Shown: one piece after another, positions 2,411 through 60,055 of the stretch
Layout of the letters: each line of letters opens with the position of its first letter
Numbering within the stretch: the stretch's first letter is position 1
Source of the DNA: Luteolibacter sp. Y139
GTDB taxonomy: Bacteria > Verrucomicrobiota > Verrucomicrobiia > Verrucomicrobiales > Akkermansiaceae
NCBI RefSeq assembly: GCF_038066715.1
Contig: NZ_JBBUKT010000003.1
Coordinates: 372,001 to 436,000 of the forward strand
DNA: 64,000 nt
Direction of reading: 5' to 3'
Notes under the pieces: model-generated
The model's input: the letters and a program-made list of their open reading frames with translations, nothing else
Databases searched by the model: none
What the model was told of the DNA's origin: nothing
Translations under genes and position numbers: made by a program

Positions 2411-3351
2411 ACTCTGAATTTTCTGGCAACATTGTCGACAGCACCGGAGCGCCCCTTGTGGCTTGGGGCGAAACGGTGTTCTTGAAGCGGCTCTTCGAAG
2501 AACTCGAAGCCCAGCTGGGTGACGACTTTTCCCGGTTCACCTTCGTGGTACATCGCCGAGTGTTCGGTGAGATTGCTGGCTCTAAAATTAACTTGGATCC
2601 CGGTGGCCCAAATCGCGTGCTAATCGTGATTTCGGATGAGTGCGAGGCCTTTCCGTGCCAGGAATTCCAATCCTACCGGGTCGTATTCCGCGCCTATGGT
2701 TCACCGCTTGGCGGCGACTCGCGCATTCACGCGTTCCCCGTTGGATACCTCAACGCCGCCGGGCTTGTTGAACCGGTGGAATTTGACCAGCGCCAGGTCA
2801 CGGTCTTCTTCTCAGGTTACCTGAACCGCAACCGGTTGGATGTCTATAAGCAATTCCGGCCGGTATGGTGGCTTCCAAAACGGAACCTATCCCAGAACAG
2901 ATATATCCGGGAGATCGCACGCCGCGCAGCGGAGAGATTCACCAAGGAGCGTAGCTTCCCTGACGCCATCCCAGGAGGACATGTGGCTTTCACCGATTGG
3001 TTCGGAAGAGGACTAGCTCCTGAGGAATACGCGCAAACCTTGGCGAACTCCCGGATCGCCATTTGCCCACCGGGTTTTGAAAGCCACGAAACGATTCGCC
3101 ACTGGGAGGCAATGCGCTTGGGTTGTGTTGTGATCTCGGCACCACTGCCGCCAAACCGCTTTTATTCGAACAGCCCGATCATCCAACTCTCCGACTGGTC
3201 TGATCTCAAGCCAACCGTGAACCGCTTGCTGAACAATCCTTCGGAGCTTCGGGCGAGGCACCTCGCCACCGTCGATTGGTGGAAAAAAGCCTGCTCAGAA
3301 AAGGCGGTGGCAGACTACATGGCGCGCATTATCGTCATGCCCGACTCCTAA
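2407..3351 (+). CDS. Exostosin-like glycosyltransferase
   Basis: The 314-residue reading starts at ATG 2407, overlapping the preceding stop by four bases; a longer in-frame start at 2329 would lie deep inside the upstream gene and is less likely. The C-terminal half carries ANSRIAICPPGFESHETIRH followed by WEAMRLGCVVIS, which matches the nucleotide-sugar-binding end of exostosin (GT47-like) transferases. The N-terminal half, with VVFRAYGSPL and a central FFSGYLNRNR segment, is typical of bacterial members found in polysaccharide clusters. It is probably a cytoplasmic or membrane-peripheral inverting transferase. The sugar it handles is unknown. Confidence 0.65.
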   Translation: MNSEFSGNIVDSTGAPLVAWGETVFLKRLFEELEAQLGDDFSRFTFVVHRRVFGEIAGSKINLDPGGPNRVLIVISDECEAFPCQEFQSYRVVFRAYGSPLGGDSRIHAFPVGYLNAAGLVEPVEFDQRQVTVFFSGYLNRNRLDVYKQFRPVWWLPKRNLSQNRYIREIARRAAERFTKERSFPDAIPGGHVAFTDWFGRGLAPEEYAQTLANSRIAICPPGFESHETIRHWEAMRLGCVVISAPLPPNRFYSNSPIIQLSDWSDLKPTVNRLLNNPSELRARHLATVDWWKKACSEKAVADYMARIIVMPDS

Positions 3352-3371
3352 CGGGAAGCCCACTCTTCGTC

Positions 3372-4844
3372 GTGCTCTTCAACTCTTGGGAGTTTCTAAT
3401 CCTGCTCGTTGCGACCTTTGCGCTTTACTACGCGCCCTGGTCTCGCGGACGCAATGGCAAGGCGTGGCAGGTTACACTGGCGCTGGTCGCCAGCGTGATC
3501 TTCTATGGCTGGGAAGACCCGAAGTTGATCGGTCTCCTAGCGATTTCGTGCGTCGGCAACAGCTTGGCCACCGGCCGTATTATTCTCCACAAGGTCGCCG
3601 GAAACGAGGCCAAAGTGAGACAATGGACACAACGCGCGGTAGTGATGAATCTATCCCTGTTGGGGATCTTCAAGTATCTGCCTTTCCTCGCCGGGCTATT
3701 TCCCTTTCTTCCGCCGTCTTGGTTGGCCGCAGCCAAGGCCATCCCACTGCCAATCGGCATTTCCTTCTATACGTTCCACGGTATCAGCATGATCGTGGAT
3801 GTCGCACGTGGCGAGGTGACTCGGGAAGGCGATGCGCTCATGTCCAAAGGCGGCAGGTTCGCGAAAGGGGTTCGCGATATAGGCTTCTACCTCCTCTTCT
3901 TCCCTCAGCTCGTCGCTGGACCAATCGTCAAGGCAAAGGAATTCTGGCCGCAAATAAGTGGAAAACGCTTGGAAGACATTCGATGGCGACAAGTTGTGCG
4001 CGCTTTGATTACTGGCTATTTCCTCAAGGTTTTCGTGGCGGACAACCTTTCCGAACAAACCGCTAGCCTGACCCTCGGCCCCGAAACCCTGATCGCCTCC
4101 GGCCCGCTGAATCTGATCCCGCTGCTTTACGCTTACTCGCTCCAGATTTTCGCCGACTTCGCGGGCTATTCACTGATCGCAATCGGACTGGCTGCAATGT
4201 TCGGCTACCGCTTTCCGATTAACTTCAACTTTCCCTATCTCTCGACCAGCATTACCGAGTTCTGGCGACGCTGGCACATGTCGCTGTCAGCTTGGCTTCG
4301 CGATTACCTTTACATTCCACTGGGTGGCAACCGCAACGGTCCTACGCGCACTTACCTGAATCTTTTTCTGGTCATGTTTCTTGGAGGACTGTGGCACGGA
4401 GCCGAGTGGAAATTCGCCTTGTGGGGTTCGCTGCATGGGCTGCTCCTGGCCATGGAGCGGTTGTGGGGTAGGAATAAAGCAACTGCGCTCCCGCGGAATA
4501 GCTTCGGGTTCATTCGATTGACCTTCGGATGGCTCTTTGCCTTCCACGCCGTGACGTTGCTTTGGCTGACGTTCCTGATGCCGGACATGGCCAGTATCGT
4601 GGCCTTCTTCCGAGGCGTCTTCGGCGGCAGAACTGGCTTCTCCGGTCCTCCTGCCTTTTCGTTGGTTTTCTATGGAGCGGCCGTGGTCCTTTACCATGCG
4701 TGGGGTTGGCTGAGCGAGCACCGCGAAATACTCGCCGCCAAATTGGCACGGGCACCGTTCGAGCCTTTGATCCAAGGAGTGATGCTCTTTTTAATTTTCA
4801 CAAACCCCGGAGCGCCTCGCGGGTTCATCTATTTTCAGTTCTAA
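3372..4844 (+). CDS. MBOAT family O-acyltransferase (AlgI/DltB-like)
   Basis: This polytopic membrane protein of about 491 residues transfers acyl groups, usually acetyl, across the membrane to an extracytoplasmic polymer. GTG 3372 is chosen because it gives the family's usual beginning (LFNSWEFLILL) and follows the upstream stop by 20 bases with a GGGAAG ahead of it. The conserved FWRRWHMSLSAWLRDY block has His302, and GGLWHGAEW carries the invariant catalytic His342. The next two genes encode secreted SGNH-type proteins, the standard partners of MBOAT in AlgI/AlgJ/AlgX and DltB/DltD systems. Together they argue for O-acetylation of the polysaccharide. Confidence 0.88.
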   Translation: MLFNSWEFLILLVATFALYYAPWSRGRNGKAWQVTLALVASVIFYGWEDPKLIGLLAISCVGNSLATGRIILHKVAGNEAKVRQWTQRAVVMNLSLLGIFKYLPFLAGLFPFLPPSWLAAAKAIPLPIGISFYTFHGISMIVDVARGEVTREGDALMSKGGRFAKGVRDIGFYLLFFPQLVAGPIVKAKEFWPQISGKRLEDIRWRQVVRALITGYFLKVFVADNLSEQTASLTLGPETLIASGPLNLIPLLYAYSLQIFADFAGYSLIAIGLAAMFGYRFPINFNFPYLSTSITEFWRRWHMSLSAWLRDYLYIPLGGNRNGPTRTYLNLFLVMFLGGLWHGAEWKFALWGSLHGLLLAMERLWGRNKATALPRNSFGFIRLTFGWLFAFHAVTLLWLTFLMPDMASIVAFFRGVFGGRTGFSGPPAFSLVFYGAAVVLYHAWGWLSEHREILAAKLARAPFEPLIQGVMLFLIFTNPGAPRGFIYFQF

Positions 4845-13651: not shown

Positions 13652-14323
13652 GTGAGCGAAGTTCCCCAAGAAATTACCCGCATCCTCCTCGTGGACGATC
13701 ACCCGATGATCCGCGAGCGCCTCGTCGAGTTGATTGTTCGCGAGCCTGATCTTGAGGTATGTGGCGAGGCTGAAGATCGCCACGAAGCACTTGACCTCGT
13801 CGCTTCCACCCGTCCGGGTTTGGCTATTGTCGATTTGACCCTGAAATCTTCTCTAGGAATCGAGCTGATAAAAGACCTCCAAGCCCGCTTTCCTGAAGTC
13901 AAGGTGCTGGTGGTGTCAATGCAGGATGAAATGATCTACGCTGAGCGCTGCCTCCACGCCGGTGCCAGGGGCTACATTACGAAGCAACAGGCCAGCCGCT
14001 ACATCATGCGGGCCATTCGACAGGTTCTCGCCGGGGGCATCTACTTGAGCGAAACGATGACCCGCCAAGTGCTCGAGCGTTCCATGGGACGTCCGGCAAA
14101 TCGCGAACCGCTTGAGATTGCCTCAATACTTACAGAACGTGAACTCCAAGTTTTCGAACATGTAGGGAAAGGTTTTAGCACCAAGCAAATTGCAGACTTG
14201 TTGACATTGGATATCAAGACAATCGAAACCTACCGGTCGCGCATCAAGGAAAAGCTGGGATTGAAGGATGGACCTGAACTGCTTCAGCGGGCCATCGCTT
14301 GGGTCCACCGCGGCGCAGGCTAG
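13652..14323 (+). CDS. NarL/FixJ-type response regulator
   Basis: The start is GTG 13652, four bases after the kinase stop. The 223-residue protein has a receiver domain with the acidic pair Asp15/Asp16, phosphoacceptor Asp61 in AIVDLTLKS and conserved Lys111 in GYITKQQ. A LuxR-type helix-turn-helix follows, beginning LTERELQVFEHVGKGFSTKQIA and containing KTIETYRSRIKEKL as the recognition region. It is the partner of the HisKA_3 kinase just upstream. A short inverted repeat 20 bases beyond the gene, before the sulfatase gene, could be its binding site or a terminator. Confidence 0.92.
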   Translation: MSEVPQEITRILLVDDHPMIRERLVELIVREPDLEVCGEAEDRHEALDLVASTRPGLAIVDLTLKSSLGIELIKDLQARFPEVKVLVVSMQDEMIYAERCLHAGARGYITKQQASRYIMRAIRQVLAGGIYLSETMTRQVLERSMGRPANREPLEIASILTERELQVFEHVGKGFSTKQIADLLTLDIKTIETYRSRIKEKLGLKDGPELLQRAIAWVHRGAG

Positions 14324-55325: not shown

Positions 55326-56807
55326 ATGGACGATTTCCGCCTCCGCGCCGGTGCCATCATTGGCGATTACCGCCTCGACGAAGTCCTCGACGAAAGCCCG
55401 ACCTCCGTCACCTGGTTGGCCGAGCAACAGTCCATTCGCCGCACGGTGGTGGTCATCGAGCTGAAGCCGACGGCCCTCCACTCCAGGGATGCCTTCCTCG
55501 CCGACATCCGTGCGCAGGCCGCCGTCGATCACCCTCTAATCGGCTCGGTCTATGAGGCGGTGAACCTGCCGGAACACTGCTTCGCCGCGCTGGAGCGGCT
55601 CCCCGGTGCCTCGCTCGCAGACCGGCTGAAAGCCCGGGAAGCGATGAAGCCGGCCCAGGTCGCCCACGTCCTGCGCCGGGTGGCCGAGGCGTCCATGACG
55701 CTGGAGTCCGGCGGCATGTCCACGGCCGCGATGCATGCAGGAGACGTGTTTCTCGACACCCACGGCGTCGTTCGCGTGGCAAATCTCGCCCGCGCCGGCG
55801 TGCGCGAGGCCGGGCGCTCGGCCACCGACATTGCGGCCCTTGGCGGCGAACTCGTCCGTCTGGTCGCTGACGGCCGGGCGGGGGCCTCGCGGATGATGAC
55901 CCTGCTTGCATGGATGCGTGGCGAGGGGCTGGAGCGTTCGCTGACCTGGACGGAAGTCCGTTCCTACGCCGAGCAGATCGAGCAGCAGCTCGCTGAAAGT
56001 CCCGCCGCTGCGGCACCACCCACCGCCCGTGCCCAGACCAGAAAGTCGCCGCTACCCCTGGTGCTCGGCTTGGCGGCCGTGGCGATTGCCGCGGGGTTCG
56101 GAGCCTTTCTTCTGAAAGGGAAGGCCAGCAGCAAACCGACAGCTTCATTGCCCGGCCCGGTGGTCGTTCCCGAGGGTGCCCATCCGCTTCCCGATGGCGG
56201 CACCTCGGCCCTGCCCGCCTTCGAACTGGGCGCCCACGAGGTGACCATCGGCGAATACGAAGACTTTCTCAAGGCACTCGCCGTCCTCCCTGCCGACCGG
56301 AGGACCACCTACGACCACGCCACTCAGCCCGCGGAAAAGGCCGGCCACGAGCCGGAGGGCTGGGCGGACATGCTCGCCGCCATCAAGACCGGCGGCCAAT
56401 GGCAGGGCCGCGTGATCAGCCGCGACTGCCCGATCGTGAATGTCGATTGGTGGGACGCCATGGCCTACTGCGAGTGGAAAACCGTCCACCTCCCGACCGA
56501 GGAGCAATGGTGGGCCGCCATGCACCTCCAGCTACCCGAGCCCTCGGCCCTGCGCCCCTCCGGCTGGGGACCGGTGTCAGAAATCGCCCCCACGGACCGC
56601 ACCCCGGCTGGCTTCGTCGGCATGGCCGGCTCGGTCACCGAGTGGACCCAGAGCCAATCGCTCAATCCCGCCAACCCGCTCGGCGAAAAGAACTGGGTCC
56701 TCATGGGCGGCTCCTACCTCAAGCCCTCCTCCGGCGCCACCGCCCGCGAATGGACCGCCGACCGCGCCCTCCGCCGCCCCGACCTCGGCTTCCGCGTGGT
56801 GGAGTAG
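55326..56807 (+). CDS. Degenerate kinase domain fused to a sulfatase-modifying-factor fold
   Basis: The 493-residue protein starts with a kinase-like domain (about 12-225) that has lost the key residues. The position of the ATP-binding Lys reads VVVIEL (42-46), HRDLKPxN is replaced by AAMHAGDVFL (134-143) and DFG by ANLA. One membrane segment (243-263) follows, then an FGE/SUMF1-type domain (about 290-493) with PAFELGAHEVTIGEYEDFLK, NVDWWDAMAYCEWKT, HLPTEEQWWAAM and LGFRVVE. The two Cys residues needed for formylglycine formation are not seen, so the outer domain is more likely a binding module. It may form a signalling unit with the kinase at 51481. Confidence 0.82.
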   Translation: MDDFRLRAGAIIGDYRLDEVLDESPTSVTWLAEQQSIRRTVVVIELKPTALHSRDAFLADIRAQAAVDHPLIGSVYEAVNLPEHCFAALERLPGASLADRLKAREAMKPAQVAHVLRRVAEASMTLESGGMSTAAMHAGDVFLDTHGVVRVANLARAGVREAGRSATDIAALGGELVRLVADGRAGASRMMTLLAWMRGEGLERSLTWTEVRSYAEQIEQQLAESPAAAAPPTARAQTRKSPLPLVLGLAAVAIAAGFGAFLLKGKASSKPTASLPGPVVVPEGAHPLPDGGTSALPAFELGAHEVTIGEYEDFLKALAVLPADRRTTYDHATQPAEKAGHEPEGWADMLAAIKTGGQWQGRVISRDCPIVNVDWWDAMAYCEWKTVHLPTEEQWWAAMHLQLPEPSALRPSGWGPVSEIAPTDRTPAGFVGMAGSVTEWTQSQSLNPANPLGEKNWVLMGGSYLKPSSGATAREWTADRALRRPDLGFRVVE

Positions 56808-56821
56808 CCATCAGCGACCAA

Positions 56822-56935
56822 CGATCCCGAAGGGATCGCAGCAAGTAGCCGGTGGTCGAGCCGCACCGCGGCGAAAACCACCGGAACCCCCGAAAAGCAG
56901 ACAGAATCCCGGATGGGATTCCAGCCGGGCTGGAA
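56822..56935. repeat. Multi-hairpin intergenic repeat element
   Basis: Four inverted repeats lie in 114 bases: CGATCCC/GGGATCG (56822-56838, three-base loop), CCGGTGGT/ACCACCGG (56849-56884), GAATCCC/GGGATTC (56904-56921) and TTCCAGC/GCTGGAA (56919-56935). The arrangement resembles dispersed REP-like elements that I recall from verrucomicrobial intergenic DNA. It fills the gap between the pseudokinase and OsmC genes. It could be a terminator, an RNA-stability element or a transposable remnant. Confidence 0.6.
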
Positions 56936-56950
56936 GCACCCCCTAGATCC

Positions 56951-57460
56951 ATGGACAGCACCGAACTCAAAGCGCTGCAGGCGCCCCTCAAGGCCCAGTA
57001 CCAAGAGTCCCCCGAAAAGGCCCTGGTCACCTTGCGCGCCCACGGCCGCCTCGACGAAGGCATCAGCTGCCGGGTGGATGCCGGACAGTCGGCAGTGGTC
57101 GCTGGATTGCATCCGGCCACCGGCGGCAGCGGCGCAGCGGCTTGCTCGGGGAATATGCTGCTCGATGCCCTCGTGGCTTGCTCCGGTGTCACCTTGAACG
57201 CAGTGGCCACCGTTCTTGGCATCCATCTCCGGGACGCCGCCATCGAAGCCGAAGGTGACTTGGATTTCCGCGGTACCTTGGGCGTCTCCAAGGAAGTGCC
57301 GGTCGGCTTTCAAAGCATCCGGTTGATCGTCACGCTGGACACCGATGCCTCGGACGAACAGCTCGCGAATCTTCTCCGATTGACCGAGCGCTACTGCGTG
57401 GTCCTTCAGACCCTCAAGCACCCGCCGGAAACGACGCTGCTTCGAAGGCCTCAGCCGTGA
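56951..57460 (+). CDS. OsmC family protein
   Basis: ATG 56951 gives 169 residues, MDSTELKALQAPLKAQYQES. The OsmC fold shows GQSAVVAGLHPATGGSGA, ACSGNMLLDALVACSGVTLN with the first redox Cys, and the second Cys in TERYCVVLQTL. OsmC/Ohr proteins reduce organic hydroperoxides with thiols; some members instead act in other pathways. The start lies 16 bases past the multi-hairpin repeat, so upstream in-frame codons inside the repeat are not used. Its stop is at the left edge of an insertion. Confidence 0.83.
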   Translation: MDSTELKALQAPLKAQYQESPEKALVTLRAHGRLDEGISCRVDAGQSAVVAGLHPATGGSGAAACSGNMLLDALVACSGVTLNAVATVLGIHLRDAAIEAEGDLDFRGTLGVSKEVPVGFQSIRLIVTLDTDASDEQLANLLRLTERYCVVLQTLKHPPETTLLRRPQP

Positions 57461-57481
57461 AGCCACAGCTTCAGCCCATAC
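57461..57481. repeat. 21-base direct repeat, left copy
   Basis: This copy is identical to 58198-58218. Read on the minus strand it encodes YGLKLWL and is followed by HG and a stop (57451-57453), so it looks like an older 3' end of the AEC transporter gene. It begins one base after the OsmC stop and bounds the DUF4240 insertion. Confidence 0.75.
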
Positions 57482-57506
57482 GCCAAAGACATCCGCTGCA
57501 TGCACT

Positions 57507-58052
57507 ATGACCATTGACCAGTTCTGGCAGATCATCGATCAATGCTCACCCCATTCGTTCGACATGGGGCTGAAGTGCCGCTCATTGGAAAAGGCCATTT
57601 CGACTTTAACACCAGATGAGCTTCGCGCATTCACCGATCATTATTGGAGTTGTCGAACAAAAGCTTATCATTGGCCACTGTGGGATGCGGCTTCCATCAG
57701 CCATGGAGGATGCGGTGACGACTCCTTCATGGACTATCGTAGCTCTCTGATTACATTTGGTCGCGATACATTCGAGAGTGCTTTATCTGATCCAGACAGT
57801 TTGGGGGATTTGGAGCATCCCATACCTCGTAGCCAGGATGTGTATGTGGTCATTCATAGTGTTGCCGAACGAATGCTCGGACCCAATTACAGGCCGCCAG
57901 GGGGTGACCCCTCCGAGCCAACGGGAGAGTCAATCGAAGGCGCTGAGGACTACGATTCTATTGCGTTAAACCGCTTCCCTAAGCTCCATGCACAACGGGA
58001 TCGAATCTCTGCTACTATTCAGCAGAAGAAACCATGGTGGAAGCTATGGTAG
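57507..58052 (+). CDS. DUF4240 family protein on AT-rich insertion
   Basis: The 181-residue protein begins MTIDQFWQIIDQCS and has the DUF4240 core: ASISHGGCGDDSFMDYRSSL, ITFGRDTFESALSDPDSLGD and QDVYVVIHSVAERMLG. It ends QQKKPWWKLW, a tail of the kind found on some secreted-effector or immunity-like proteins. DUF4240 proteins have no established function; some occur in polymorphic toxin immunity contexts, to my knowledge. The base composition is visibly lower in GC than all neighbours. It is the only gene inside a roughly 0.7 kb segment flanked by a 21-base direct repeat. Confidence 0.78.
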   Translation: MTIDQFWQIIDQCSPHSFDMGLKCRSLEKAISTLTPDELRAFTDHYWSCRTKAYHWPLWDAASISHGGCGDDSFMDYRSSLITFGRDTFESALSDPDSLGDLEHPIPRSQDVYVVIHSVAERMLGPNYRPPGGDPSEPTGESIEGAEDYDSIALNRFPKLHAQRDRISATIQQKKPWWKLW

Positions 58053-58197
58053 ACAACAAGACAAAGGAGGACGAACAAGCCGCGGTAGGCAACGGCGGCA
58101 TCGCGCGGCGGTTGCAATCGGCGCGTCTCGTGGCCGCCGCTGAGCTTGGGGTCGTCAAAGTGAACTGCGATTCCGCCGGAGGTTCGATCCCTACGCT
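58053..58197. other. Non-coding right arm of the insertion
   Basis: These 145 bases hold no convincing gene. A strong AAGGAGG at 58064-58070 is followed by no clear reading frame. The right part (58140-58197) is GC-rich again, and TTCGATCCCTACG near its end resembles a T-arm but does not fold into a tRNA. It may be the recombination arm of the inserted segment. Confidence 0.4.
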
Positions 58198-59120
58198 AGC
58201 CACAGCTTCAGCCCATACACCAGCGCCGGCGTGGTGATCAGACTGATCAAGGTGCTGTAGTACACCGCCGAAGTCGCAAACGAGGTATCGCCGCCGAACT
58301 CATGCGCCAATAGCGCCGTGTTCACCGCCGTCGGAGCGGCCGCCGCCAGAATCAGTGACGCGGACACATCGCGCGAGAACCCGAACGCCATCACCAGCAG
58401 CACCGCCAGCGCCGGGGAAATCACCAGCCGCAGCAGGATCGCCGACCACAACGGCCCGCGAAACGGCGCCGGCTTGGTTTGCGACATCTGCACGCCCAGC
58501 GTGACCAGTGCGAAGCCGATCAACCCCGCCTGAATCAAGTCGAAGGGCTCCCACAGCCAAATCCAGTCCTGCGGCCGCACCCCAAGACCGCGGCACGTGA
58601 GCCCGGCAGCCATCGCGTAGAGAGTCGGCTGGCGCAGCATCTTCATCAGCGCCTTCCGGTGTGCCCCCACGGTCTCACCCCGCGCCTGCGCCAGGAAAAG
58701 CCCGACCGTGTAGGTCGAGATGTTCATCGTCGCGAGGACGAAGATCTGCACCGCCGCGGCGTAGGCCCCGAAGGCCAGCGTCACCAGCGGCAGCCCGTAG
58801 TTGCCGCAGTTGTAGAACATCGCCGCTAGCGAAAGCGCCTGCCTTCCCCGCGTGTCCATCCGGCACAGGCGACCTGCAATGATGCTGCCCACGAACATCA
58901 GCGCGATCGTGCACAGCGTGAACCCCGCGATCCGCAGTGCCTCCGTCCCGCCCATCTCCGCGCTCACCACCCGGGTGAAAATGAACGCCGGCACCATCAG
59001 GTAGATGTTCAGCTTCACCAGCGTCTCCAGGTGCAGCTTGAACTTGCGGTCCATCAGCCAGCCCGCGCCCACGATCAGGAAAATCGGCGCACAGACATCG
59101 AGCAGGATCCGGAAAAACAC
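58191..59120 (-). CDS. AEC family transporter
   Basis: GTG 59120 on the minus strand starts a 309-residue protein with about ten membrane segments in two inverted sets of five. Landmarks are LLDVCAPIFLIVGAGWLMDR, AMFYNCGNYGLPLVTLAFG (the conserved NxGNxGxP-like crossover) and AAAAPTAVNTALLAHEFGGD. AEC (auxin efflux carrier) proteins export organic anions. The last codons, YGLKLWLA, lie on the right copy of the 21-base repeat, and the gene's former end seems to be the left copy at 57451-57481. The protein is intact despite the insertion. Confidence 0.88.
   Translation of the reverse strand: MFFRILLDVCAPIFLIVGAGWLMDRKFKLHLETLVKLNIYLMVPAFIFTRVVSAEMGGTEALRIAGFTLCTIALMFVGSIIAGRLCRMDTRGRQALSLAAMFYNCGNYGLPLVTLAFGAYAAAVQIFVLATMNISTYTVGLFLAQARGETVGAHRKALMKMLRQPTLYAMAAGLTCRGLGVRPQDWIWLWEPFDLIQAGLIGFALVTLGVQMSQTKPAPFRGPLWSAILLRLVISPALAVLLVMAFGFSRDVSASLILAAAAPTAVNTALLAHEFGGDTSFATSAVYYSTLISLITTPALVYGLKLWLA
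58198..58218. repeat. 21-base direct repeat, right copy
   Basis: This copy is identical to 57461-57481 and lies within the last codons of the AEC transporter gene. With the left copy it frames about 716 bases containing the DUF4240 gene. Confidence 0.75.
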
Positions 59121-59296
59121 GCGCGGCGATCAACGCGGTCACGGGCCGCGATGTCAATCGGTGTCCCGCCCTTACGCCCGCTGTAAGGCTCTCAATTACA
59201 CAAAGTCCCGGCAGACCCCATCCCGCGATCACGTGAGTCGGTTCGGGTTCTCTGATCTTGCAGTTACCTTAAGGATCGGGCAGGGTCCGCCCCACT

Positions 59297-60055
59297 ATGA
59301 AACTTCTGCCCTCCCTTGTCGCCGCTCTTCTGACGGGCCTCGCTGCCTCCGCCTCCGCCCAAGCCACCCGCACCTGGGTCTCCGGCGTGGGTGACGATGC
59401 CAACCCCGGCAGCCGCACCGCCCCGTGCAAGACCTTCGCCGGCGCCATCAGCAAGACCGCCGTGAAAGGCGTGATCAATGTCCTCGATCCCGGCGGCTTC
59501 GGCGCGGTCACCATCACCAAGTCGATCACCATCGACGGCACCGGCTCGGAAGGACACATCCTCGCTTCCGGCACCAATGGCATTGTCATCAATGCCGCTG
59601 ACGACGACGTGGTCATCCTCCGCAACATTCAGTTCGAGGGTGCTGGCACCGGCCTCGTCGGCGTGAAGATTCTCAAGGCCGGCGCGGTCTATCTCGAGAA
59701 CTGCCGCATCGAGAATTTCCAACAGGGCGTGGTCGAAACGACTTCCTCCACCACCGGCACCCAGATCTTCCTGCGCGACTGCCTGATTCACGAATGTAGC
59801 GGCGAGGGCATCTCGCTCGCTCCAGGCGCGGACACGGCCAGCGTGGCGCTGCTCGAAAACACCCGCGTCGAAGGCTGCGGCACCGGCATCTCGGTCGCGG
59901 ACCGCGGTCGTGCCGTGCTCAATGGCTGCACCATCGCCTTCAACGTGGCCGATGGCCTCAAGAAGGTCGGCAAGGGCGTCCTCGAGTCCTACAAGAACAA
60001 CCACATCCTCGGCAACACGCCGGACGGCAAGGCCACTACCTTGACCACCAAGTGA
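59297..60055 (+). CDS. Secreted right-handed beta-helix protein
   Basis: The 252-residue protein has a signal peptide (LLPSLVAALLTGLAASASAQ) and then TRTWVSGVGDDANPGSRTAP with CKTFAGAISKT, the standard opening of parallel beta-helix proteins. Repeating turns such as NGIVINAADDDVVILRNIQF and GVKILKAGAVYLENCRIENF make up the rest. There are no clear catalytic residues of a pectate lyase. It is probably a secreted structural or carbohydrate-binding protein. The 176-base region before it has only a short CTTAC/GTAAG hairpin and no gene. Confidence 0.8.
   Translation: MKLLPSLVAALLTGLAASASAQATRTWVSGVGDDANPGSRTAPCKTFAGAISKTAVKGVINVLDPGGFGAVTITKSITIDGTGSEGHILASGTNGIVINAADDDVVILRNIQFEGAGTGLVGVKILKAGAVYLENCRIENFQQGVVETTSSTTGTQIFLRDCLIHECSGEGISLAPGADTASVALLENTRVEGCGTGISVADRGRAVLNGCTIAFNVADGLKKVGKGVLESYKNNHILGNTPDGKATTLTTK

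Follow-up and report, generated by a model that had tools for sequence, protein, structure and literature searches.

A single small gene encoding a DUF4240 protein has been inserted as a unit at the 3' end of an AEC-family transporter gene in Luteolibacter sp. Y139, in a place where relatives do not carry it, as is characteristic of integron gene cassettes. We consider it rather probable that this insert is an integron cassette, while the complete reading that we favour, a lone integron-type cassette accompanied by a 21-nt repeat that is a scar of the AEC tail, stands at slightly under an even chance. The features on which the argument is built all lie within the window, by which we mean the whole 64-kb stretch of DNA that was analyzed:

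55326 to 56807, plus strand: gene with an FGE-sulfatase (SUMF1-like) domain (PF03781, 71.3 bits), the left anchor of synteny
56951 to 57460, plus strand: lineage-specific gene of the OsmC family (PF02566, 63 bits), whose stop abuts the left repeat
57461 to 57481: left copy of the 21-nt repeat, the displaced old AEC tail (YGLKLWL-HG-stop on the minus strand)
57482 to 58197: inserted segment of 716 nt between the repeats, an interval that is empty in genome G011 and holds another gene in genome G008
57507 to 58052, plus strand: DUF4240 gene (PF14024) of 181 amino acids, the cargo
58070 to 58188, plus strand: attC-like site next to the AEC stop (attC covariance model, 13.1 bits)
58191 to 59120, minus strand: transporter gene of the AEC (auxin efflux carrier) family (PF03547, 79.7 bits), whose 3' end is the target
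58198 to 58218: right copy of the 21-nt repeat, the present AEC 3' end (YGLKLWL-A-stop)

The two copies of the exact direct repeat AGCCACAGCTTCAGCCCATAC, at 57461-57481 and 58198-58218, start 737 nt apart and can be extended to a pair of 25 nt with one mismatch. This is the sole direct repeat of at least 18 nt within the window, and the longest repeat to arise by chance in 200 first-order Markov resamplings of the region 56801-59400 measured 16 nt and was found once. Read on the minus strand, each copy yields the peptide YGLKLWL, followed in the right copy by A and the stop of the AEC reading frame (58191-59120), and in the left copy by HG and a stop that overlaps the end of the OsmC gene at 57460. 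The first-pass annotation had placed the repeat at exactly these coordinates and had read the same peptide from both copies, the left one with HG and a stop; its description of the enclosed segment, about 716 bases with one gene of low GC content and no integrase, likewise proved correct.

The DUF4240 gene, recognized with 95.8 bits against a cut-off of 27, is the sole credible gene between the repeats. Its GC content is 50.5%, as compared to 60.7% for the window, and equally low values are reached in 20 of 1270 segments of 546 nt. Neither the open reading frames between the repeats nor a Pfam search yielded an integrase, no transposase family was detected in the two scanned reading frames of the insert, and none of the 8 inverted repeat pairs listed falls at the two insert edges. 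In these scans the segment showed neither the terminal inverted repeats nor the transposase of a transposon or insertion sequence. The fold of the encoded protein is predicted to be mainly helical (mean pLDDT 91.4). In NCBIfam and PADLOC the cargo finds no family at E ≤ 0.01, no relative was found in the PDB (best E 0.7 by sequence and 0.96 by fold), and a literature search returned no paper containing the word DUF4240. Among the 17 further genus genomes, 5 have homologues with 35-40% identity, none of them beside an AEC orthologue; the DUF4240 genes of the relatives checked are all at other places, and not, as it might have been, at the same place and with normal composition everywhere. Note that the genome of strain Y139 contains a second DUF4240 gene (L042, G000:C11:86381-86842), whose product is 35% identical to the window protein and which in the alignment resembles those of G007, G008 and G011. 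Judged by its sequence it is probably a resident member of the family.

AEC orthologues are present in 6 of the 17 other genus genomes, with identities of 87-89% in G007, G008, G010 and G011 and of 78% in G012, and in two pieces in G006. The latter gene (L081, G006:C123:13578-14222) matches only residues 1-115 and 205-308 of the query, as if its middle had been lost. In 29 AEC-family loci of other genomes, comprising orthologues and distant relatives with approximately 1.5 kb on each side, tblastn gave no match to either the OsmC or the DUF4240 protein. The alignment of the FGE-sulfatase-domain gene to G008 and G011 runs up to position 56805. In G011 this gene and the AEC gene are about 210 nt apart, with neither an OsmC-like nor a DUF4240-like gene between them, and in G008 they are about 770 nt apart and enclose one different gene, which encodes 192 residues, has a GC content of 53.5% and belongs to no Pfam family. 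As the site is empty in G011 and occupied by another single gene in G008, the DUF4240 segment is an insertion. The earlier proposal of a lineage-specific insertion at the AEC 3' end, by which the old gene end was displaced leftward, is supported by the locus of G011 that lacks the insert.

The OsmC gene found no match above 35% identity in the 17 other genus genomes (two of them with weak matches) or among 287 further genomes that sample the order, genus members included (nine with weak matches). Because OsmC was found in the relatives neither beside the AEC gene nor as a close homologue, the OsmC-AEC pair is a recent state, and by this comparison of sequences OsmC, too, was gained in this lineage only, at the junction that also received the DUF4240 gene. 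Its GC content of 63.9% is host-like, and no attC-like end was seen. It had been anticipated that relatives would show an empty site with OsmC and AEC genes adjacent; a site without DUF4240 does exist in G011, but the adjacency of OsmC and AEC was not found there, being itself new.

Some elements integrate at the 3' ends of genes by means of tyrosine recombinases, and the first-pass annotation had taken the 21 nt for the attachment core of an element of this kind. A small mobile element with its core in the AEC 3' end, served by a tyrosine recombinase in trans, would explain the choice of a 3' end as the target, the typical core length of the repeats and the replacement of the last codons, but the following results make this explanation improbable. 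At one base both copies have a C, whereas every one of the six relatives that possess an AEC orthologue shows G or A there, in a comparison of seven genus genomes including this one. As this lineage-private base is common to both copies, the second copy was made from the lineage's own AEC tail, and a core brought in from another host is unlikely. The repeat starts where conservation of the AEC protein stops, at its last conserved residue, and after this point the AEC ends vary within the genus. At base 22 the right copy has an A, as do all six relatives, while the left copy has a G, so that the duplicated stretch probably ends at 21 nt. When up to three mismatches are allowed, the 7.1-Mb draft genome contains the core only in this pair, so the expectation that the same repeat would be found beside other single-gene insertions was not borne out; nor does the insert have a second copy in the genome. 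Moreover, the insertion at the same place in G008 lacks a flanking direct repeat of at least 12 nt, as do all 15 other attC loci that were checked out of 51 found, some of which lie within arrays rather than alone. With the core confined to this pair and no repeat at any of the 15 attC loci, neither a shared integration core nor an ordinary cassette insertion explains the repeat, which looks like a scar copied from the AEC tail of this lineage. An element of the 3'-end-integrating type would carry an integrase and share its core with other sites; no integrase was seen in the insert, and no further core in this one draft genome. The end of a tRNA or tmRNA was also considered as the target, given the T-arm look of the sequence before the right repeat, and was rejected, since ARAGORN found none in the window. 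When 57300-58400 was searched against Rfam, the sole hit within E 1 was to a snoRNA, with 20.9 bits against a gathering score of 48, which we take as chance, and no match at the gathering score was obtained in loci L076 or L077.

An integrase need not adjoin a lone cassette. Integron integrases above the NCBIfam cut-off are encoded in 8 of the 18 genus genomes (G001, G002, G006, G007, G010, G012, G013 and G017), with a further one just under the cut-off in G016 (247.4) and a partial one in G014. In the genome of strain Y139 (G000) no integron integrase exceeds the cut-off, the best match reaching 84.6 bits against 265, and a complete integron was accordingly not found. In G002 and others the integrases lie in contigs with repeats of clear attC type, which start with NNCGAACAAG and end with GACGTTCGNN, and the array of G002 has a GC content of 56% versus 64.4% beside it. 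Note that several integron integrases and attC arrays are found in one chromosome of G002 (L067, L068 and L069), where the stretches at approximately 3.26 Mb and 3.45 Mb have some identical attC sites in common. In titles and abstract openings of the literature on integrons together with Verrucomicrobia or Luteolibacter, no title concerned the integrons of this group.

The attC type of the genus first became visible as repeats in the G002 array and was then gathered by pattern and by eye; a scan with a guessed half-attC pattern and strict pairing was discarded, as it largely missed this type. A first covariance model (R1) was made of 23 attC rows picked from a pattern listing seeded with GAACAAG, leaving out duplicate array sites and chance matches of the same listing, and a second model (R2) of 102 matches of the first at 37 loci, some of which overlap, so that a few sites are counted twice. 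The window and G008 sites were excluded from the training of both models. As evidenced by the 23 sites, the R and L stems of the genus attC covary: 81.1% of the cells are paired, and the covariation of 0.301 compares to 0.119 in shuffled alignments, none of 500 being as high. The pairs changed on both sides number 11 versus 8.6 in shuffles, 31 of 500 being as high, and slid alignments always showed a lower paired share and a lower covariation score. With 150 candidates scored per genome, the first model found matches at E ≤ 1 in 17 of the 18 genomes, from one to at least 75 in each, the poorest at chance level; G002 and G016 had at least 75 each under the same limit. The genome of strain Y139 had three such matches among its 150 scored candidates, and the best of them (L102, G000:C5:441369-441452, minus strand; 32.4 bits, E 7.1e-5) is a lone attC-like site that scores better than the one in the window.

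Between the stops of the DUF4240 and AEC genes, the plus strand of 58070-58188 obtains the top score of the second model in a scan of the 64-kb window on both strands with filters off. At 13.1 bits and E 0.2 this score is weak, the next being 11.3, and E becomes 0.0035 when the search space is 1.1 kb. The 5' half of the site is well kept (GACGAACAAGCCGCGGTAGGCAAC), and the 3' half is degenerate and ends in GTTCGAT. In the G008 locus (19.9 kb) the top score falls on the matching place and strand (13663-13748, plus; 15.5 bits, E 0.015, next 12.0), with an R'' of GTTCACC that overlaps the AEC stop. The empty G011 locus gave 11.2 bits at most, for a minus-strand match that lies within the FGE-sulfatase-domain gene, some 400 nt away from the AEC end. 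With a 5'-half matrix, 58073 scored 19.5 and was the sole position with at least 18 among 388,412, and when both half-sites were combined, with 97 of the 102 rows used for the 5' matrix, the window site ranked first of 388,796 at 23.4, of which the 3' half gives 2.0. With respect to the G/TT point expected at both edges of a cassette, an R''-like GTTCGAT stands at 58182-58188, and the left edge reads ATACGCCAAAGA, where the arrays have GTTCGNN or similar and after it a purine-rich leader. The low GC content of the inserted genes in the window and in G008 resembles that of the G002 array. If real, the attC-like site is a decayed one, and we infer that it would once have been used as an attC.

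Several results nevertheless run against a cassette. The training seed GAACAAG also occurs in the window stretch, so that its 5'-half score is flattered, and when the combined half-site scores were ranked, second place (22.0) went to an unrelated position of the window and fifth place (15.5) to the G008 site. In the whole-genome lists of the first model at E ≤ 10, for which 150 of some 3,200-3,700 candidates were scored per genome, the 10 entries for this genome do not include the window site and the 9 for G008 do not include the G008 site; the latter was also not reported in a further model search. In 131 kb of other loci one match of 14.0 bits was obtained. R' and R'' of the window site agree in 5 of 7 positions, and the folding of the 58066-58192 bottom strand does not surpass that of its shuffles (z -0.82; 46 of 200 were as good), as is the case for the bottom strand in G008 (z 0.14; 108 of 200 were as good). 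For three array attC sites in the same comparison 19, 0 and 36 of 200 shuffles were as good. A shorter attC reading, 58066-58162, shows better folding (z -2.08 for the top strand and -1.91 for the bottom strand), and was rejected in spite of this because the covariance model prefers an end at 58188. No match to the attC model was found at 10 other DUF4240 loci, and an insertion made by IntI is not expected to duplicate its target.

Such results would be natural if the DUF4240 gene were an ordinary lateral gain by unspecific joining and the attC-like stretch a coincidence. The low model bits, the absence from the whole-genome list, the poor folding and the lack of an attC match beside the 10 other DUF4240 loci all agree with this explanation, as does the neighbouring OsmC gene, which was likewise gained and in which no attC-like end was seen. 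It must however leave to chance that the top filter-off score of the locus lies at the junction of insert and AEC gene, and on the same strand, in both genomes with an extra gene, and we regard it as unlikely, if still to be reckoned with. It is this agreement in junction and strand for which the cassette reading is kept despite the contrary results, and the training seed and the whole-genome list are the reason why we hold it to be rather probable and go no further.

For the integron-type cassette with its scar, the repeat could have arisen as follows. The DUF4240 gene with its now decayed attC would have settled at the AEC 3' end, in a genome that yielded no integron integrase, when the AEC tail was broken in a staggered way that left 21-nt overhangs. 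A cassette fragment would have been captured at the break, and the filling-in of both overhangs would have produced the one 21-nt duplication in a single step, the ends being joined by Ku. Two matches to Ku (PF02735) above the cut-off are present in this genome, and foreign DNA is said to be taken up by bacterial end joining, as Dupuy et al. reportedly described in 2019. Ku is found in 7 of the 18 genus genomes (G000, G003, G005, G008, G009, G011 and G015), and the same search recovered it in Bacillus subtilis 168, which served as a control. Note that these seven and the 8 of 18 genomes with an integrase above the cut-off do not overlap; these are raw counts, and shared ancestry may explain them. 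The outcomes of bacterial NHEJ are mostly small deletions according to passages in PMC10932983, and neither its passages on NHEJ nor other literature consulted describe a 21-nt fill-in. Taken by itself, the break-and-fill step is a tentative proposal with less than an even chance, slightly favoured over the recombination of alleles.

The latter would be compatible with a cassette and differs in the joining step. It supposes that an OsmC-AEC allele recombined with a cassette-AEC allele by a homologous crossover inside the AEC gene and an illegitimate joint on the other side, in the manner of homology-facilitated illegitimate recombination; the joint would lie within the tail of the resident AEC gene, at a depth of 21-25 nt, and the old tail would be left behind. 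This would account for the two unlike AEC ends, one with HG-stop and one with A-stop, as well as for the base-22 mismatch and the missing integrase, and G008 indeed contains a gene and an attC-like stretch directly at the AEC end. All 18 genus genomes gave matches to the ComEC family, yet so did 10 of the 14 controls, that of E. coli included, and the matches consequently are no proof of natural competence. In PMC5361080, homology-facilitated illegitimate recombination is put forward tentatively to explain how gene arrays came to be displaced in Vibrio, yet it is termed quite rare there, and a prior event must have placed the cassette in a conspecific donor. On balance this route is unlikely as well.

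If the favoured reading of a lone cassette and a scar is right, the locus illustrates in detail how a cassette can exist apart from every integron, at a single chromosomal position, the AEC 3' end, where two close relatives have each acquired a different single gene; it would also caution against taking every clean direct repeat that encloses one gene for an attachment core. A wider conjecture would be that Ku-encoding, integrase-less members of the genus capture free cassettes at breaks by end joining, with duplication of the target. We give it little credence; were it true, cassettes would spread into genomes unable to run an integron, and the cassette pool would reach wider than the integrase.

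Among known systems, elements integrated at gene 3' ends by tyrosine recombinases resemble the window in the position of the target, the replaced gene end and the direct repeats, but the insert has no integrase, the core occurs only in the pair, and both copies carry the private base of the host. Loot et al., a work of 2024 cited in PMC12901181, reportedly showed that integron integrases insert cassettes into chromosomal attG sites. A cassette at an ordinary chromosomal place is common to both situations, and the G008 insertion, whose R'' meets the AEC stop, would fit; the window junction in contrast is displaced, a copy of the target is present, and no integrase above the cut-off is encoded in the genome. 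The old gene end left beyond the new DNA recalls homology-facilitated illegitimate recombination as presented in PMC5361080. Finally, single attC sites or cassettes without a neighbouring integrase are termed one-attC CALIN in the usage of IntegronFinder, as given in PMC9024848. The insert is like these in being a small gene with an attC-like 3' stretch and no integrase nearby, in a genus rich in integrons, and unlike them in its low attC-like score and in the 21-nt flanking repeat, which none of the 15 other attC loci has. It is thus probably an instance of a largely known uptake of single genes, distinguished by an unusual scar.
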